In this document: one piece after another, positions 5,190-43,374 of the stretch
How positions within the stretch are numbered: position 1 is the stretch's first letter
Layout of the letters: each line of letters starts with the position of its first letter
Virus record (IMG/VR): IMGVR_UViG_3300035698_008372
Location: 1 to 64,000 of that record
Strand: one strand, 5' to 3'
Source of the DNA: a virus
Length of the DNA stretch: 64,000 nt
The notes under the pieces: generated by a model
The model's input: the letters and a program-made list of their open reading frames with translations, nothing else
What the model was told of the DNA's origin: nothing
Databases searched by the model: none
Program-made: the position numbers and the translations under genes

Positions 5190-5474
5190 ATGAAAAAATC
5201 AGAATTAAGACAAATTATTAGGGAAGAAATTCAGAAATTGAATGAGGCTGCACCAGTGCATGCCGATTTTGGTAAATATCTTGGTGATCTTACTGACAGT
5301 AAAACTATTTGGTTGTACCCAAAAAAGGGCGCATACGATTTCAAAAAAGAAATTGTGATACTAAAAAAGGCTTTTGGTAAAGCAAAAGTAACACCACATG
5401 AAATGGATTCAGTGGAGCTGGTATTTTCTAAGCCAATCCCAAGTCCAAAAGAGTGGGCGAACGCACTAAAATAA
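5190..5474 (+). CDS. Leader-bearing putative internal capsid protein
   Basis: A 94-residue protein starting MKKSELRQIIREEIQKLNE and then AAP, giving the clearest LNE-A cleavage site of the family. The remaining ~75 residues look like a compact alpha/beta domain (KTIWLYPKKG, SVELVFSKPIP). The next gene begins 12 bases downstream, so the two are probably co-transcribed from the late promoter at 4858. Function unknown. Confidence 0.7.
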   Translation: MKKSELRQIIREEIQKLNEAAPVHADFGKYLGDLTDSKTIWLYPKKGAYDFKKEIVILKKAFGKAKVTPHEMDSVELVFSKPIPSPKEWANALK

Positions 5475-6483: not shown

Positions 6484-8070
6484 ATGATGAATGAAGCACA
6501 AAAACTAAAAGAGGCGATGAAGAAAGAGTACATTAAGTGTGCTGTTGATCCCACGTACTTTATGAGAAAATACTGCATCATTCAGCATCCGCAACGTGGT
6601 AAGGTAAATTTTAACCTTTATGATTTTCAGGCCGATACTCTAGAAAAAATAGTAAGCAATAATTACACTGTAATTCTCAAAGCTAGACAACTGGGATTAT
6701 CCACATTAACTGCCGGATATGCCCTTTGACTAATGACATTCAATACGGATAAGGATATTTTGGTTATCGCTACGAAACAGGATAAGGCCAAAAACTTGGT
6801 AACAAAAGTAAGGGTTATGCATGCAAATTTACCAAATTGATTAAAATCCACCTGTACGGAGGATAACAGACTTTCAATGAGTTATAAGAATGGCTCAAGA
6901 ATTAAAGCAGATACATCATCCCCAGACGCTGCACGATCAGAATCACTATCATTATTGATTCTCGATGAAGCGGCATTCATCCCAAAAATTAACGATATAT
7001 GGACAGCAGCTCAACAGACATTAAGTACTGGTGGCCGCTGTATTGCATTGAGTACACCAAATGGTGCTACTGGATGGTTTCACGATATATGGGTTGGTGC
7101 GGAGAATAAGGTTAATTCATTTTTTCCAATATATCTTCACTGGACGGTACACCCAGAACGTGATCAAGTATGGCGTGACAAGCAATCTTTGGATTTGGGC
7201 CCAGAATTGGCCGCCCAGGAATGCGATTGTTCGTTTATCACTTCTGGAAAATCGGTAGTCCCCGGTCCAATTATTCAATGGTATTTGGATAATTTAAAGG
7301 AAGAACCCATCGCACGAGAAGGTCTTGACGGTAACTATTGAAAATGGAAATATCCTGAAATTGGAGCATCCTATGTGGTTTCGGCAGACGTGGCACGTGG
7401 CGATGGTAAGGATTATTCCGCATTTCATGTAATTAATATTGACACATTGGAACAAGTGGCTGAGTATCAGGGGAAAGTCGATACTAAAGCATTTGGAGAT
7501 TTATGTGTAAATGTGGCTACAGAATATAATGACGCACTGTTAATTATTGAAAATGCCAATATTGGTTGGGGTTCGATTCAACAGGTTGTTGACAGGGATT
7601 ATAAGAATTTATTTTACGCCACATCGGACTTGAAATATGTGGATGTAAAATCACAGATGACAAACAAATATTATAGAGACGATCGAAAAATGGTGGCAGG
7701 GTTTTCAACTACTAGCAGAACCAGACCAATGATCGTGGAAAAACTGGTGGAATATTTTAGAGATAAAACCGCAATAGTACATTCCAATAGACTAATAAAT
7801 GAGTTATTTTCATTTGTATATGGTCCTGCTTCGGCCGCACAGGCCGATTATGGTGCTAATGACGATTTAGTAATGAGTTTCGCGATAGCCCTATGGGTAC
7901 GTGATACTGCAATTCGTCTAAGAACTGAGGGAATGACTCAGCAGAAAAATTTAATGAAGCAAATGGTGGATTATCAACCAGTTTATAGCGAAAGTAGTAA
8001 TAAAAATGATTCATGGAATTGGGACGACTCACATGGGAATAATGTTGGGTTGGACTGGTTGCTGGATTAA
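6484..8070 (+). CDS. Terminase large subunit (gp17-like)
   Basis: A 528-residue ATPase-nuclease that packages DNA into the prohead through the portal. The ATPase domain has a Walker A variant KARQLGLST and Walker B LLILDEAAF. The C-terminal nuclease has the acidic motifs SADVARGDGKDYSAF and, late, YGANDDLVMSFAIALW. Three in-frame TGA codons (6727, 6838, 7339) fall where homologues have Trp: GYALWLMTF, LPNWLK and GNYWKWKYP. Without recoding the gene would be four fragments. Twelve or so other Trp codons are TGG. It lies directly upstream of the portal, as in T4-like phages. Confidence 0.97.
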
Positions 8071-8087: not shown

Positions 8088-11000
8088 ATGGCTGAAGGTA
8101 AATTAGCACGGAATTTAAAAAGATTATTTTCTGGAACCGTTATTGTTCGCAATATTGGTGGTAGAAAATTAAAGGTTGTGGACACGGACAATGTCCAATC
8201 TACTGTGAATAGAAATTTCATGGATAGATATACTAGATTGTACTCATCAATGGGTGGGTCAACTGGTCGTGCTATACAATTCTATCAAGCTGGGCAGAGA
8301 ATGGCCCTTTTCAAAGATTACGAACAAATGGATGCGGATGCTATTATCTCATCCGCACTAGACATTTATGCAGATGAATGTTTGGCAGGCGATACCATAA
8401 TTCCATTATTGGATGGTCAAAAATTGACTTTAAAAGAAATGTTTGATAATAATATGACCGATTTTTGGTTGTATGGTATTGACGATGGTGGAAATTTTAA
8501 ACCGTCTATGGGTAGATTTGTGGCATATAAGGGAAAATCCGATGTTTATAAAATAACATTGGAAGATGGTACGATATTGAAATCCACTGGAAATCATAGG
8601 TGATTGGATTCAAATAATAAATTGAAATATACTGAAAATTTTAAAGTCGGGGATGGAATTTATGCTCTTTCTACTAAAATAAGTGAACATAAAAATATGC
8701 CTGGATATGAAATGATAAAAAATGGAGAAAATTTCGAATTTGTTCATCGGATGGTTGCTAAAAATAATAAAATTTTATTGGAAGAACGAAAGCATAAAAC
8801 GGATAAGGCTGTAATACACCATAGTTCATTTGATAAGAGAAATAATTCTCCGGAACATTTAATTTGGCTTAATTCCAAAGAGCATTGGCAAATGCATGCT
8901 GATTTTAACAAACAATTGTGGTCAGATGATACCAAAACTCATGCATATAAAGACAAAATTAAGGAAGCACATGAGGCATATTGAACACCCGAACTTAAAC
9001 ATCAAGTAGCTATACGCCAGTCTAAATTTATGAAAGACTGAATGTCGAAAACTACTGACAATGAAAGAAAAGTTTTATTTGGGAATTATGGTGAAAAAAA
9101 TGGAATGTATGGCAACGGCGAATTGTTGTCTGGTAATAAAAATGGTAGATGAATATCATCAATGAATAGAATTAGTAAGTATGATTTAAATACACTAGTT
9201 GATTTATTAATGAAAGAGTATACTGGTGGTAAAAATAGCAGTGCTAGAAATATTTTATCTAATCACTACGATTTTAATCGTTCGGAATTTTTAAAATTTT
9301 CCAAAATGGTATGTGAATATTATGGAATATCAAATTTAAAATCATTACCACGTGAATATTATTTTGAGAAAAATAAACATTTATTATCTGACATGAGATT
9401 AAAAATATCCAAATTCAATAAAAATCCAAAGCGAAATTTTAATTTATTGTGCAATAATATAGGGACTACTAAAATAGAGTTTAATCATATATTAAATAAA
9501 GCTGGATATCATTCTTTTGGTGATTTTGCGGATTCTTCTAATCATAAAATTATATCTATTGAGAAATTGCCTGAATTGGAAGATGTATATGATATTATTG
9601 ATGTGGATGATACTAACATTTATGCGATTGAATCGGTCGATGGATCGAAAATATATACTCACAATTCTACAATGAAATCCGAATATGGTGATGTTATTGA
9701 GATTACCGCTGAAGATGAGGGTGTAAGGGAAGTATTACATAACTTGTATTATGACATTTTGAATGTTGAATTCAACTTGTGGCCATGAGTTAGAAATATG
9801 TGTAAGTATGGGGATTTCTTCCTGCATTTACAGATAGATGACAATTATGGTATATACAATGTTATTCCAATGTCGGCCTATGATGTGGTTAGACTTGAAG
9901 GATTAGACCCAGCAAAACCAAATGAGGTTAAATTTCAATTGGGCGAGGGTGAAACCAGACACATGGCTAAGGGTAATGATGAAACCGAGATGCTGGAAGA
10001 TTATGAGGTTGCACACTTTAGACTACATTCAGATTCAAACTATTTGCCATACGGTAAAAGTATGATTGAAGGTGGCCGTAAAACGTGGAAACAACTAACA
10101 CTAATGGAAGATGCCATGCTGATTCACAGAATCATGAGGGCCCCTGAAAAGAGAGTATTCAAATTGGATATTGGTAATATTGCTCCAAATGAGGTTGAAC
10201 CATTCATGAAATCGGTTATTTCCAAAATGAAAAAAACCCCAGTTATGGATGAACAGACTGGTGAATATAATTTAAGATACAACATGCAGAATCTCACTGA
10301 GGACTTTTTCCTTCCAGTGCGTGGTTCTGATAGTGGAACTGAGATTGACACATTATCTGGGTTGTCTTATGAGTCCACCGATGATATAGAATATTTGAAG
10401 AACAAAATGATGGCGGCTTTGAAAGTACCTAGGGCATTCTTGGGATACGATGAGGCTCTAAACAGTAAATCAACATTGGCAGCAGAAGATGTGAGATTTG
10501 CAAAAACAATCGAGCGAATCCAAAAGGTGATAGTTGACGTTTTGATGAAAATTGGTGTGGTTCACCTTTATACTCAAGGGTATAGGGATGAGAGAATGCT
10601 TAATTTTGATCTTAGCTTAACTAACTCGTCTATCATGTTTGAAGAGGAACGGTTGGAATTATTGAACAACAAAATTTCAGCGGCTAGTTCACTTCTACAG
10701 GACGATTTGGCACCTACAGATTGGATATATAATAATATCTTCAAATTCGGAAAAGCCGAACAAGAACAAATCAGACTGGAACTATTAAAAGACAAAAAAC
10801 GCAAGTTCCGTTATCAACAGATTGAAGATGAGGGAAATGATCCATTGAAATCTGGTGAAGCTGTTGGTACACAAGGTGCCATGATGGCCGCCGGCGGGGA
10901 AGAGGGCGGCGGACCCCCACATCCAGTTCCAGGTGGCGCACAGGAAGAAAATTATGGTGATTATGGAGAAGATAATGAAGCTCCTGCAGGTGGCCATCCA

Positions 11001-11264
11001 GGTGGTGGCCGACCTAAAGAAGGGCCTAAGTATGGTAAGGATAGTTCCGCTACCGGCCGTGATCCACTAGGAAAACATGACATGAAAAAGGCCAGTAGCA
11101 ATAGTCCTAAATACGGAAAAACTTTATCACTCTCACATTACGCGTCTTTAAAGACAAGATTGGGTGAAAAGTTCGTAGAAAAGAATCAAAAAATATTAAA
11201 AGAATCTGATGATATAGAAAAAGAATATAAAGATGATATTTCTAGCTCAGAGGACGCTGAATAA
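8088..11264 (+). CDS. Portal protein (gp20-like), interrupted by an intein
   Basis: The precursor is 1,058 residues and the spliced portal about 629. The N-extein ends ALDIYADE and the C-extein starts STMKSEYGD, joining into the conserved ALDIYADES portal segment. Later portal motifs are CKYGDFFLHLQ, the DDIEYLKNKMMAALKVPRAFL region, and a Gly/Pro-rich tail near 10880-11050. Five TGA codons (8601, 8982, 9039, 9150, 9786) are read as Trp; the last, in LWPWVRNMCKYGD, lies in the extein itself. The portal forms the dodecameric DNA gateway at the head vertex and nucleates prohead assembly. RBS and spacing follow the terminase gene closely. Confidence 0.95.
8379..9665 (+). mobile_element. Intein with HNH-like endonuclease inside the portal gene
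   Basis: A 429-residue protein-splicing element. Block A begins at Cys (CLAGDTIIPLLDG). Block B is STGNHRW, whose Trp is encoded by TGA 8601. Block F/G is VYDIIDVDDTNIYAIES with a final IYTHN, followed by Ser as the first C-extein residue. The middle holds an HNH-like stretch (AVIHHSSFDKRNNSPEHLIW) consistent with a homing endonuclease. Four TGA-Trp codons lie within it, so it can only be made where UGA is read through. The insertion point is a highly conserved portal site, typical for inteins. Confidence 0.93.
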
Positions 11265-11338: not shown

Positions 11339-12217
11339 ATGAGTAAAAATTTGCGACACAGCAAGATTAAGAACACTGGGATTTTATTTGAACTATTATC
11401 AAGACAGATAACAGTGGATGTTCTTAACAATAGGAAGAATTCTTCCGCCATAGATATTATTAAGAAGTATTTTAATGAGAATACGGAACTCGGAAGAGAG
11501 CAACAATTGTACCGTATATTGATTGGGGAAAATTACAATGTGGAATCTAAAGCGGATAAGTTGATTGAGGCGGTGATATCTTCACGCCAAAAAATCAAAA
11601 ATTCAAATTTGCACAACGAAAAATATAATCTCATTAAAGAGATCAAAGAGAATTACAGTGTAGATGAATTTTTCGCGGCCAGAATACCTAATTATAAAGT
11701 TTACGCGTCCATCTATAAATTATTTTTGTCTGAGACTTCAGGTGGTACATTCGATCCCGCCGAAGCTGTTAATAGCAGATTTACAATAATTGAACATATA
11801 ATTAGAAACCCAATTGCCAAAAAAGACAAGCAGGCTAAAATTGTTAGTGAGTATCAAAAGCAGGAAAAAGACTTGAGATTACTATCCTACCAAATTTTAG
11901 TTGACAAATTCAATGAACGCTATTCGGCGTTAGATTCCCATCAGAAAAAGTTGTTAAAGGAATATATTAATAATATTTCAAATACCAATAATTTGAGGGA
12001 ATATATCAATGTTGAATCTAAGAGAGTGACAAAGGAATTAAAATCATTGATTTCCAAGGTTGATGACGATATTACTCGTATCAAATTGAAGGAATCAATT
12101 GCTCAAGTCAGTAAGGTAACAACTGGCAAGCTTGTAAAAGATGATCAGGTAGTTAAGATGATGAGATATTATCAGTTAGTTAAAGAAATCAAGAAAACCA
12201 TCAAAGGAGATAAATAA
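11339..12217 (+). CDS. Conserved T4-like phage protein of the prohead region, unknown function
   Basis: A 292-residue, helical, Lys/Glu-rich protein starting MSKNLRHSKIKNTGILFELL. I recognise this N-terminal motif from marine T4-like phages near the gp21 protease, where it is annotated as hypothetical. The position between portal and protease suggests a prohead core or assembly role. It overlaps the next gene by one base (TAATG). It has no TGA codons. Confidence 0.7.
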   Translation: MSKNLRHSKIKNTGILFELLSRQITVDVLNNRKNSSAIDIIKKYFNENTELGREQQLYRILIGENYNVESKADKLIEAVISSRQKIKNSNLHNEKYNLIKEIKENYSVDEFFAARIPNYKVYASIYKLFLSETSGGTFDPAEAVNSRFTIIEHIIRNPIAKKDKQAKIVSEYQKQEKDLRLLSYQILVDKFNERYSALDSHQKKLLKEYINNISNTNNLREYINVESKRVTKELKSLISKVDDDITRIKLKESIAQVSKVTTGKLVKDDQVVKMMRYYQLVKEIKKTIKGDK

Positions 12218-12990
12218 TGAGTGACGCGTTACGGAATTATATTAGGGAATTAGTAGAAGCTGAGTTGGCCGAGGCCAATGCGACTGGTAACATTGATGGT
12301 GGTGAAGGTCCTCCTAAGACTCCCAATGCATTCAGAAACAAAAAAAATGGTAAGGTTGAAAAATCCGGCAGAGCAAAGGGTCATAAAGACCCAGCGGTAG
12401 GTGAATACACAAAAGCTGATGTCAGCAACAAATATATTAAAAAAATGTATGAAACTATGGTAGCACATAGGGTGTCATTGAATGAAAAACTGGGTATCGA
12501 AGCAAGAGAACTTCAGATTTTTATTGATAATGACCAAGCATTGTATAAACAGCGGTTTATTCCAATTTTGAAGAATTTATCTAAGAAAAAGAAATCTGGT
12601 AAATTTGACGCCGCTTTGGCTCCAAAATTATTTATGTATTTGGTTGACGATGGTGCAAAACGATATGTCAAAGAGTATGGCGGTAATGTACGTGATGTGT
12701 TCCCTAAAAAGGAACGTATGGAATTGGCTAAAGAATATGCTGCAGATTTTGAAGAAGCATTTGAAAATAAAGAATATGATTTTATGAATGAAGATATGGC
12801 TCCAAATAAGGTGGATCAGGCTGAGAATGATTGGGGCAAACTCAAACACGCTCACTGACTGATAAGTTCGGTGGCCAGTGACGCCGGTGGTTATTCACAA
12901 TCTTCCAGTTCAAAAATCTCAGTAATATCCAAGGGATTGGACGGGGTAATGAAATATTTTAAAAAAGATACTGGTATAAAGGGGAAATAA
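12217..12990 (+). CDS. Prohead-region protein with N-terminal leader-like helix
   Basis: A 257-residue protein. The N-terminus (ALRNYIRELVEAELAEANA) resembles the capsid-targeting leader and has possible (L/V)xE sites. TGA 12856 is read as Trp (KHAHWLISSVASDAGG), which extends the protein to TAA 12988. The extended tail is Ser/Gly-rich then basic. It is adjacent to and upstream of the protease gene, so it may be a core protein or substrate. Function not established. Confidence 0.7.
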
Positions 12991-41652: not shown

Positions 41653-41678
41653 AAAGCCCTCGATTTATCGGGGGTTTT
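41653..41678 (+). terminator. Rho-independent terminator after sheath gene
   Basis: AAAAGCCCTCGA and TCGGGGGTTTT form an imperfect hairpin with a TTTA loop, followed by TTTTG. Confidence 0.75.
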
Positions 41679-41745
41679 GTGTATCTGGTTTATAATTATT
41701 ATTAGTAATTGGTGGTATGGGTTGGTAATAAATAAAGGAATGATA

Positions 41746-43374
41746 ATGGGTAGAAATATGGATAGTTCAAAGTGGGAAATTAGAAAATGCAAAATGTGCA
41801 GTAATGAATTTAAAGTGTATAAAATACAGAAAAAGACGATGTGTTCATCAGATTGCCGTAAAAAATGGAATTTATTGCCTAAAAATATAGAACATAAACG
41901 AAAAAAATCTATTGAATCGCAAATGGAAAAATATGGAAAATTATTTTACCAGACTGAAGAATTTCAACAAAAAACGAAAAAAATCAAGTTGGAAAAGTAT
42001 GGTGATGAAAATTATGTAAATGTGGAAAAAGGTAAAAAAACCAAGTTGGAAAAGTATGGTGATGAAAATTACAATAACAGGGATAAGTTTAAAGATACGA
42101 TGATTGAAATATTCGGTGGAATAGGCCTACAAAGGCCCGATGTATTGGGGGCGGCTAAGAGGGGTATGGTTGAAAAATATGGAGTGGAATATGCATTTCA
42201 AAGTGATGATATTAAAAACAAAATAAAACGAACTAATATTGGCAAGTTTGGTAAAGAAACATATTGGGGCTCCAATGTTTATAATCAAGAAATGTATAAT
42301 AAGAAAATGGAATCGTTAATTCCGATATTGGAAGAAATGAATTTGATAATGTTATCTGATTATGGTGGTAGTAAAAAAATCGTTGATGGTCATGCCAAGC
42401 ATATTAAATATGATTTTAAATGTTTAACATGTGACATGACATTCAATTACACTACAGCCAATGGCATTGTTCCAAAATGCCCGAAATGCTATGGAACCGA
42501 TGGAGGGACGTCATTCATGGAAAGGGAATTTCAAAAATATATAAGAGAATTATTACCAAATATTGAAATATATGAAAATGATAGGACTTTATTAAATGGC
42601 AAAGAATTGGATGTGTATATTCCGACTAAAAACTTGGCATTTGAATTCGATGGTTTATACTGGCATTCTGAAACCAAAAAGGATAAAAATTATCATTTAA
42701 ATAAGACTGAAAAATGTGAGAAAAATGGTGTTAGACTTATTCATATTTTTGAAGACGAATGGGTATATAAGAATGATATAGTAAAAAATAGAATTAAGCA
42801 TATAGTTGGGATTATGGATAAAAAAATATATGCTAGAAATACCAAAATTAAGGAAATTTCTGCTAAAGAAAAGGGGAAATTTCTAAATCAATTTCATGTT
42901 CAAGGCTCTGGAAAATCTAGTATTAAATTGGGAGCTTTTCATAATGATGAACTAGTCGCGGTCATGACATTTGGAAATAATAGAATTGCTCTTGGGAATA
43001 AAAACAAAGAAGGTGAATATGAATTAATCCGATTTGCTTCTAAATATTCAATAACTGGTGGCGCCAGCAAATTGCTTTCATATTTTACCAAAAATTATAA
43101 TCCGTCCAAAATTATAAGTTATTCAGATAGAAGATGGAACACTGGATTGGTGTATGAGCGAATGGGATTTAAAAAAATATCAAATGGGACACCTGGATAT
43201 TGGTATGTGAAAAATGGCCAAAGATTTCATAGATATAATTTTAGAAAGTCACTATTATCGGAAAAATTAAAGAAATTCAATGATAGTTTAACGGAATGGG
43301 AAAATATGCAATTAAATGGCTTTGATCGAATATGGGATTGTGGCAATTTTAAGTATGAAATGAATTTAAAATAA
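41746..43374 (+). CDS. Homing endonuclease-like protein (Vsr-like/EDxHD type)
   Basis: A 542-residue protein. Start ATG 41746 has AAAGG about 8 bases upstream. An N-terminal zinc-ribbon-like unit (CKMCSNEF with MCSSDC) is followed by five KYG-type repeats (KLEKYGDENYVN, KLEKYGDENYNN, MVEKYGVEYAF), a known DNA-binding repeat style. A second ribbon (CLTCDM, CPKC) precedes a nuclease-like domain (KELDVYIPTKNLAFEFDGLY, HIFEDEW) with Vsr-like character. It is flanked by terminator and promoter and separates sheath from downstream tail genes, as mobile genes do. It has no TGA. Confidence 0.75.
   Translation: MGRNMDSSKWEIRKCKMCSNEFKVYKIQKKTMCSSDCRKKWNLLPKNIEHKRKKSIESQMEKYGKLFYQTEEFQQKTKKIKLEKYGDENYVNVEKGKKTKLEKYGDENYNNRDKFKDTMIEIFGGIGLQRPDVLGAAKRGMVEKYGVEYAFQSDDIKNKIKRTNIGKFGKETYWGSNVYNQEMYNKKMESLIPILEEMNLIMLSDYGGSKKIVDGHAKHIKYDFKCLTCDMTFNYTTANGIVPKCPKCYGTDGGTSFMEREFQKYIRELLPNIEIYENDRTLLNGKELDVYIPTKNLAFEFDGLYWHSETKKDKNYHLNKTEKCEKNGVRLIHIFEDEWVYKNDIVKNRIKHIVGIMDKKIYARNTKIKEISAKEKGKFLNQFHVQGSGKSSIKLGAFHNDELVAVMTFGNNRIALGNKNKEGEYELIRFASKYSITGGASKLLSYFTKNYNPSKIISYSDRRWNTGLVYERMGFKKISNGTPGYWYVKNGQRFHRYNFRKSLLSEKLKKFNDSLTEWENMQLNGFDRIWDCGNFKYEMNLK

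Follow-up and report, generated by a model that had tools for sequence, protein, structure and literature searches.

Stop codons read as sense have been described in interrupted genes of crAss-like phages. In the published account of these phages, the large terminase gene (TerL) of a Delta-group cMAG (OBYQ01000140) carries two inteins, with TAG codons in intein and extein, and TGA codons are located inside intron ORFs of PolB (PMC7886860). According to its description, the zeta crAss-like phage Lera uses code 4 (UGA = Trp), with TGA mostly in structural genes (PMC12386605). Portal genes are reported among the carriers of mycobacteriophage inteins (PMC5050341).

The intein studied here interrupts a T4-type portal gene in the window, the whole stretch of 64,000 nucleotides that was analysed (positions 1 to 64,000 of the virus record IMGVR_UViG_3300035698_008372). 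Similar to the crAss-like TerL as described, it combines reassigned stops in both the intein and the extein of one phage gene, with TGA = Trp in place of TAG (PMC7886860). Like the family presented below, the mycobacteriophage inteins are described as sporadic in packaging genes, with horizontal movement inferred; they belong to another phage group, the passages that describe them mention no code change, and the two are compared by description only (PMC5050341). The portal-site family did not appear among the open-licence full texts listed for inteins in combination with UGA and tryptophan codon, with recoded phages or with T4-like portals. Stop-bearing inteins and portal inteins are thus already published, and the informative addition is the distribution of one family across codes.

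The portal intein

The interrupted gene affiliates with the T4-type portal proteins (PF07230, E 3.4e-62, 211 bits against a cut-off of 22.9; match to phrog_213). Its reading frame is open solely when TGA is read as sense; translation table 11 interrupts it at 8603, 8984, 9788 and further points, and standard annotation fragments a portal of this kind. The junctions are exact: the N-extein ends in ...LDIYADE, the intein runs from C1LAGDT to IYTHN429, and the C-extein begins with S+1TMKSEYG (Table 1). In the empty-site relatives L005-L083 and in L089 and L090 the two extein halves join without a gap; the uninterrupted examples include two cultured phages. The first-pass annotation had proposed a portal intein with four TGA codons at this locus, which the exact ends and the count of four TGA among eight Trp codons confirm.

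Table 1 Features of the portal gene, its intein and the adjacent terminase gene
Feature	Position	Strand	Details
Large terminase	6484..8070	+	3 TGA: codons 82, 119 and 286
T4-type portal (gp20) precursor	8088..11264	+	1058 aa with UGA = Trp; N-extein, intein, C-extein
N-extein	8088..8378	+	97 aa, C-terminal LDIYADE
Intein	8379..9665	+	429 aa, precursor residues 98-526; Cys1 ... His428-Asn429; GC 0.29; 4 TGA + 4 TGG
Block B T-x-x-H (T70-G-N-H73)	8586..8597	+	T70 and H73 invariant in 12 members
TGA, Trp75 beside block B	8601..8603	+	Trp in 18/20 distinct members; Phe in L246 and L252
HNH_3-like endonuclease core	8805..8885	+	Intein residues 143-169; sub-threshold in Pfam
TGA, Trp202	8982..8984	+	Trp in 17/17 distinct full-length members
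TGA, Trp221	9039..9041	+	Trp solely in the window; elsewhere, where aligned, F, L, I, Y, M or R
TGA, Trp258 (KNGRW)	9150..9152	+	Trp in 10/17, Tyr in 7/17
Block G, IYTHN with catalytic C-terminal Asn	9651..9665	+	+1 residue Ser
C-extein	9666..11264	+	532 aa; 1/4 Trp codons TGA (9786-9788)

Class-1 inteins are recognized by an in-frame insertion, uninterrupted homologues and a Hint fold, together with an N-terminal Cys or Ser, the block B motif T-x-x-H, a C-terminal His-Asn and a Cys, Ser or Thr at position +1. The portal intein has C1, T70-x-x-H73, H428-N429 and S+1, and the motif T70-G-N-H73 is what we take to be block B. A splicing domain was detected by Pfam (PF14890, Intein_splicing, E 9.9e-15) and by TIGR01445 (E 4.8e-8), and profile comparison matched the insert to solved DnaB and DnaE inteins. 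A structure predicted from 12 family members reached a pLDDT of 83.3, with residues 229-262 poorly modelled, and a Foldseek comparison of this model with the PDB placed DnaB and DnaE inteins first (E about 1e-6; Ssp DnaB intein, E 7.8e-7). Sequence and model together identify the insert as a class-1 intein with a predicted Hint fold, for which splicing is predicted. It shares with the Ssp DnaB intein (PDB: 1MI8, class 1) the Cys1, the T-x-x-H motif, the His-Asn end, a nucleophilic +1 residue and the Hint fold; it differs from class-1 inteins of this type in its HNH-like endonuclease and its four TGA-encoded Trp residues.

The HNH-like core is located C-terminal of the N-terminal splicing part and was recognized by PHROG 21964 (E 2.4e-9), with a Pfam HNH_3 score of 20.6 bits, under the cut-off of 24.8. 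LAGLIDADG is a commoner endonuclease type in inteins than HNH. The surroundings of Trp258 look NUMOD3-like by eye. The sub-threshold HNH_3 score is what might be expected of a dead intein, a pseudogene or an assembly error, a reading that we consider very improbable: the catalytic residues are kept, homologous full-length members are intact in many contigs, and the intein DNA is identical (0 differences over 1287 bases) in three further contigs, so the insert is not an assembly accident of a single record.

UGA as a tryptophan codon

The reading of UGA was derived from genes next to and far from the intein. At the three TGA codons of the terminase gene the aligned relatives have Trp encoded by TGG (58/58, 60/60 and 68/68 for codons 82, 119 and 286), as they do at the single TGA of the C-extein (82/82); over the aligned regions of terminase and C-extein, the relatives contain 922 and 414 TGG against 0 TGA. 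The survey was extended to 56 genes with homology to standard-code relatives on the 140-kb record (140003 bases). They contain 27 TGA and 276 TGG, the 4 + 4 of the intein counted in, and the commonest aligned residue at the 27 TGA sites was Trp at 20, Tyr at 2, Phe at 2, Val at 1 and Met at 1, with no letter at the last. Gene 12214-12990 has a TGA past the homologous part. The 56 genes end in TAA (44) or TAG (12), and none requires TGA as a stop. By these alignments the assignment of UGA to Trp in this phage is well supported; readings as Gly, selenocysteine or stop were rejected, the residue aligned at TGA being Trp. The first-pass annotation had made portal assembly and homing dependent on this assignment. 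The dependence holds insofar as portal and intein are translated in full only with UGA as a sense codon, Trp being the residue aligned there; it is not peculiar to the intein, since the extein (1 TGA) and the terminase (3 TGA) need the same reading.

Phages with UGA = Trp often encode a UCA-anticodon tRNA, RF1 or TrpRS of their own, although this is not obligatory. A UCA-anticodon tRNA, an RF-1 domain or release factor and a TrpRS were not found in the 140-kb record, which is linear and maybe incomplete; a host tRNA is hence the likelier source of UGA reading. In this respect the phage differs from Lera, which is described as encoding suppressor tRNAs (PMC12386605). Three tRNA-like genes at G000:81817-82058 (L084:17817-18058) were considered as UGA readers and rejected, their anticodons being Gly-like (by ARAGORN or by eye) and none UCA; within this array one gene was above the cut-off by Rfam only, and one was called by ARAGORN and fell below the Rfam cut-off.

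The TGA codons are unevenly distributed. With the intein excluded, they account for 17/141 Trp codons in the first 64 kb, which is mostly structural, and for 6/154 in the rest (p 0.015, for a split chosen post hoc). This pattern would suit a phage in which UGA is a real stop and in-frame TGA a means of regulation, with full portal and intein made by readthrough only late in infection; in crAss-like phages, reassigned stops are described as lying mostly in late genes (PMC7886860). We regard such a regulation as unlikely here: no gene among the 56 needs TGA as a stop, a suppressor tRNA was not found in the 140-kb record, and a few genes beyond the structural part also carry TGA. Separately, 21 homology-supported genes in G000:71000-98000 (L084-L085) have 2 TGA against 95 TGG, far below the structural part.

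One intein family in phages of two codes

Relatives of the intein were gathered by scans of viral sequences. One pattern scan listed at least 120 stretches, the matches listed being mostly portals with a natural Cys at +1; a sharper pattern returned 22 stretches, among them the unrelated L250. Near-identical contigs were counted once, the partial L290 and L292 (72 aa, other context) were omitted, and the close pairs L246/L252 and L279/L281 were kept as separate rows. The family so defined has at least 20 distinct members at the same site, 17 of full length and three mini-inteins (L244, L249 and L256) without endonuclease and with TGG throughout. All are inserted after LDI-Y/F/V/I/M-A/S-DE in the portal gene of T4-like phages. 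A scan of cellular genome contigs gave 273 pattern matches and 0 relatives of the intein, and 50,697 phage records yielded just 8 weak intein matches of at most 29% identity. Mapped onto the portal tree, presence of the intein requires at least nine changes, a scatter as expected for a homing element or for repeated loss. In the portals L088 (LR756508.1), L111, L151, L153 and L193, inteins occupy other positions and share about 25-30% identity with that of the window; the portal gene is a hot spot in which inteins occur at several points.

Only two distinct members contain TGA: the window intein (4 TGA, 4 TGG) and that of L223 (7 TGA, 0 TGG), from a lineage also represented by contigs L179 and L224. 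The 18 others have 0 TGA and 111 TGG between them. Among them are the nearest full-length members found, L218 (55% identity) and L220 (47-48%), whose portals have 0 TGA in the aligned part; the check proposed in the first-pass annotation, whether the closest relatives also carry TGA, thus comes out negative. The L223 intein is only about 40% identical to the window intein. Its contig is strongly recoded, with 60 TGA and 14 TGG in 15 supported genes, and the commonest residue aligned at these 60 sites was Trp at 29, Tyr or Phe at 16, others at 9 and no letter at 6.

Whether the two TGA-bearing inteins form a clade was evaluated with AU tests under LG+C20+F+G4 (LG+G4 for the three-protein tree), the clade of window and L223 having been chosen after the TGA codons were known and several row sets having been tried. 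The intein clade was rejected with 17 rows (p 0.0077) and with 20 rows over the splicing columns (p 0.00026); with fewer rows p was 0.41 (4 rows), 0.067 (9 rows) and 0.012 (12 rows). In the phage tree from portals only, {window, L223} was not rejected (p 0.40), yet the two fell into different well-supported groups. In the tree from portal, terminase and protease, computed without L171 and L152 (very long branches), L251, L220 and rows with fewer than 700 filled columns, the clade was rejected (p 0.024, 38/48 rows). As window and L223 are rejected as a clade, TGA was acquired twice in the family, the intein having entered recoded genomes on two occasions.

These data also bear on the proposal that the intein is an element of recoded genomes, moving only among them. 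Both members residing in recoded T4-like portals do carry TGA. The 18 of 20 distinct same-site members with TGG throughout, the portals of L218 and L220 and the rejected intein clade speak against it; the TGG members show that the family also lives outside recoded genomes, and the proposal is refuted. The window phage could still have received its intein recently from another recoded phage. The family provides a natural experiment: its one site is occupied both in phages with UGA as a stop and in two distinct lineages with UGA as Trp. Recoding neither bars the intein from a lineage nor is a prerequisite of its spread, and what a code barrier costs a homing element becomes testable.

In the L223 lineage, an ORF at L179:50-1522 lies between two matched parts of the terminase; it has 12 TGA and 1 TGG from stop to stop and no Pfam match, and may belong to a second insert in this gene that is rich in TGA.

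Origin of the TGA codons in the intein

The eight Trp codons of the intein are TGG at residues 30, 163, 170 and 181 and TGA at 75, 202, 221 and 258. Three of the TGA-encoded residues (W75, W202 and W258) are shared with standard-code relatives that encode them by TGG, so that TGA is the later, synonymous change; Trp221, by contrast, occurs in the window alone, where the residue itself has changed. The Trp at position 75, judged by its distribution in the alignment (Table 1), is ancestral. The first-pass annotation had a TGA-encoded Trp follow the block B His; this residue does adjoin block B, as the second after the His (H73-R74-W75). Its alternative of an intein long adapted to recoded genomes is supported by the three synonymous changes.

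Most members of this class-1 family with an HNH-like endonuclease reside in standard-code phages and use TGG. We consider it most probable that the family gained TGA synonymously within recoded genomes, recoding being no condition for its spread. A UGA-reading tRNA, probably that of the host, would allow synthesis of the full portal precursor in the window phage. Using Cys1, His73 and Asn429 together with Ser+1, the Hint domain would then excise the intein; the HNH-like domain may be able to copy the element to portal genes whose site is empty. In a recoded phage TGG to TGA would be a synonymous transition, favoured by the low GC of the intein. An element with TGA is expected to work only where UGA is sense; recoding would thus trap the element after the fact.

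The TGA share of the intein (4/8) exceeds that of the conserved genes (23/295, p 0.0028) and goes beyond what simple residence alone would predict. Given this excess, the intein might have arrived, with its TGA, from a more deeply recoded phage, recoded phages then forming a partly closed pool. A strongly recoded carrier is known in L223 (60/74 Trp codons TGA), and an endonuclease ORF in the ribonucleotide reductase gene is TGA-rich as well (5 TGA, 1 TGG). Such a donor seems to us a minority possibility: the L223 intein is too distant and is rejected as sister, the nearest known relatives have TGG throughout, and a mobile-looking ORF of the window has none of its 12 Trp codons as TGA. Moreover, less conserved ORFs of the plus strand are themselves TGA-richer (64/334; intein against these p 0.053, with doubtful ORFs in the set), and K, E and Q codons end in A more often in the intein (67/81, 0.83) than in the exteins (88/125, 0.70). 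Fast drift at the low GC of the intein may thus suffice to account for its TGA excess.

We tentatively entertain that the code change acts as a one-way valve for a selfish element: inteins of this portal-site family would enter from standard-code phages, gain UGA in the splicing and endonuclease domains alike and then be trapped in, and exchanged within, the UGA-reading pool. If so, the TGA share would serve as a clock of an element's stay in recoded genomes, with 4/8 in the portal intein, 5/6 in the endonuclease of the ribonucleotide reductase gene and 0/12 in the ORF at 41677-43374.

Further loci with mobile or unusual features were noted. Beyond the window, two breaks with split-intein-like halves on separate ORFs interrupt the class II ribonucleotide reductase gene (L084:12548-16767; G000:76548-80767), and the second of them contains the free-standing endonuclease-like ORF (78464-79582) with weak TnsA-like and NUMOD3 matches; the arrangement presumably resembles a published 'fractured gene'. 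The AT-rich ORF at 41677-43374 of the window has a DUF7487 match, weak Mom- and restriction-like matches and TGG at all its Trp codons, and may have come only recently from a genome with the standard code. Lastly, the ORFs starting at 5190, 13601, 18433, 18962 and 37308 share an N-terminus of the type M(K/E)KSELRQ(I/L/M)I(R/K)EE or near to it, which is perhaps a targeting sequence or a leader cleaved in the prohead.
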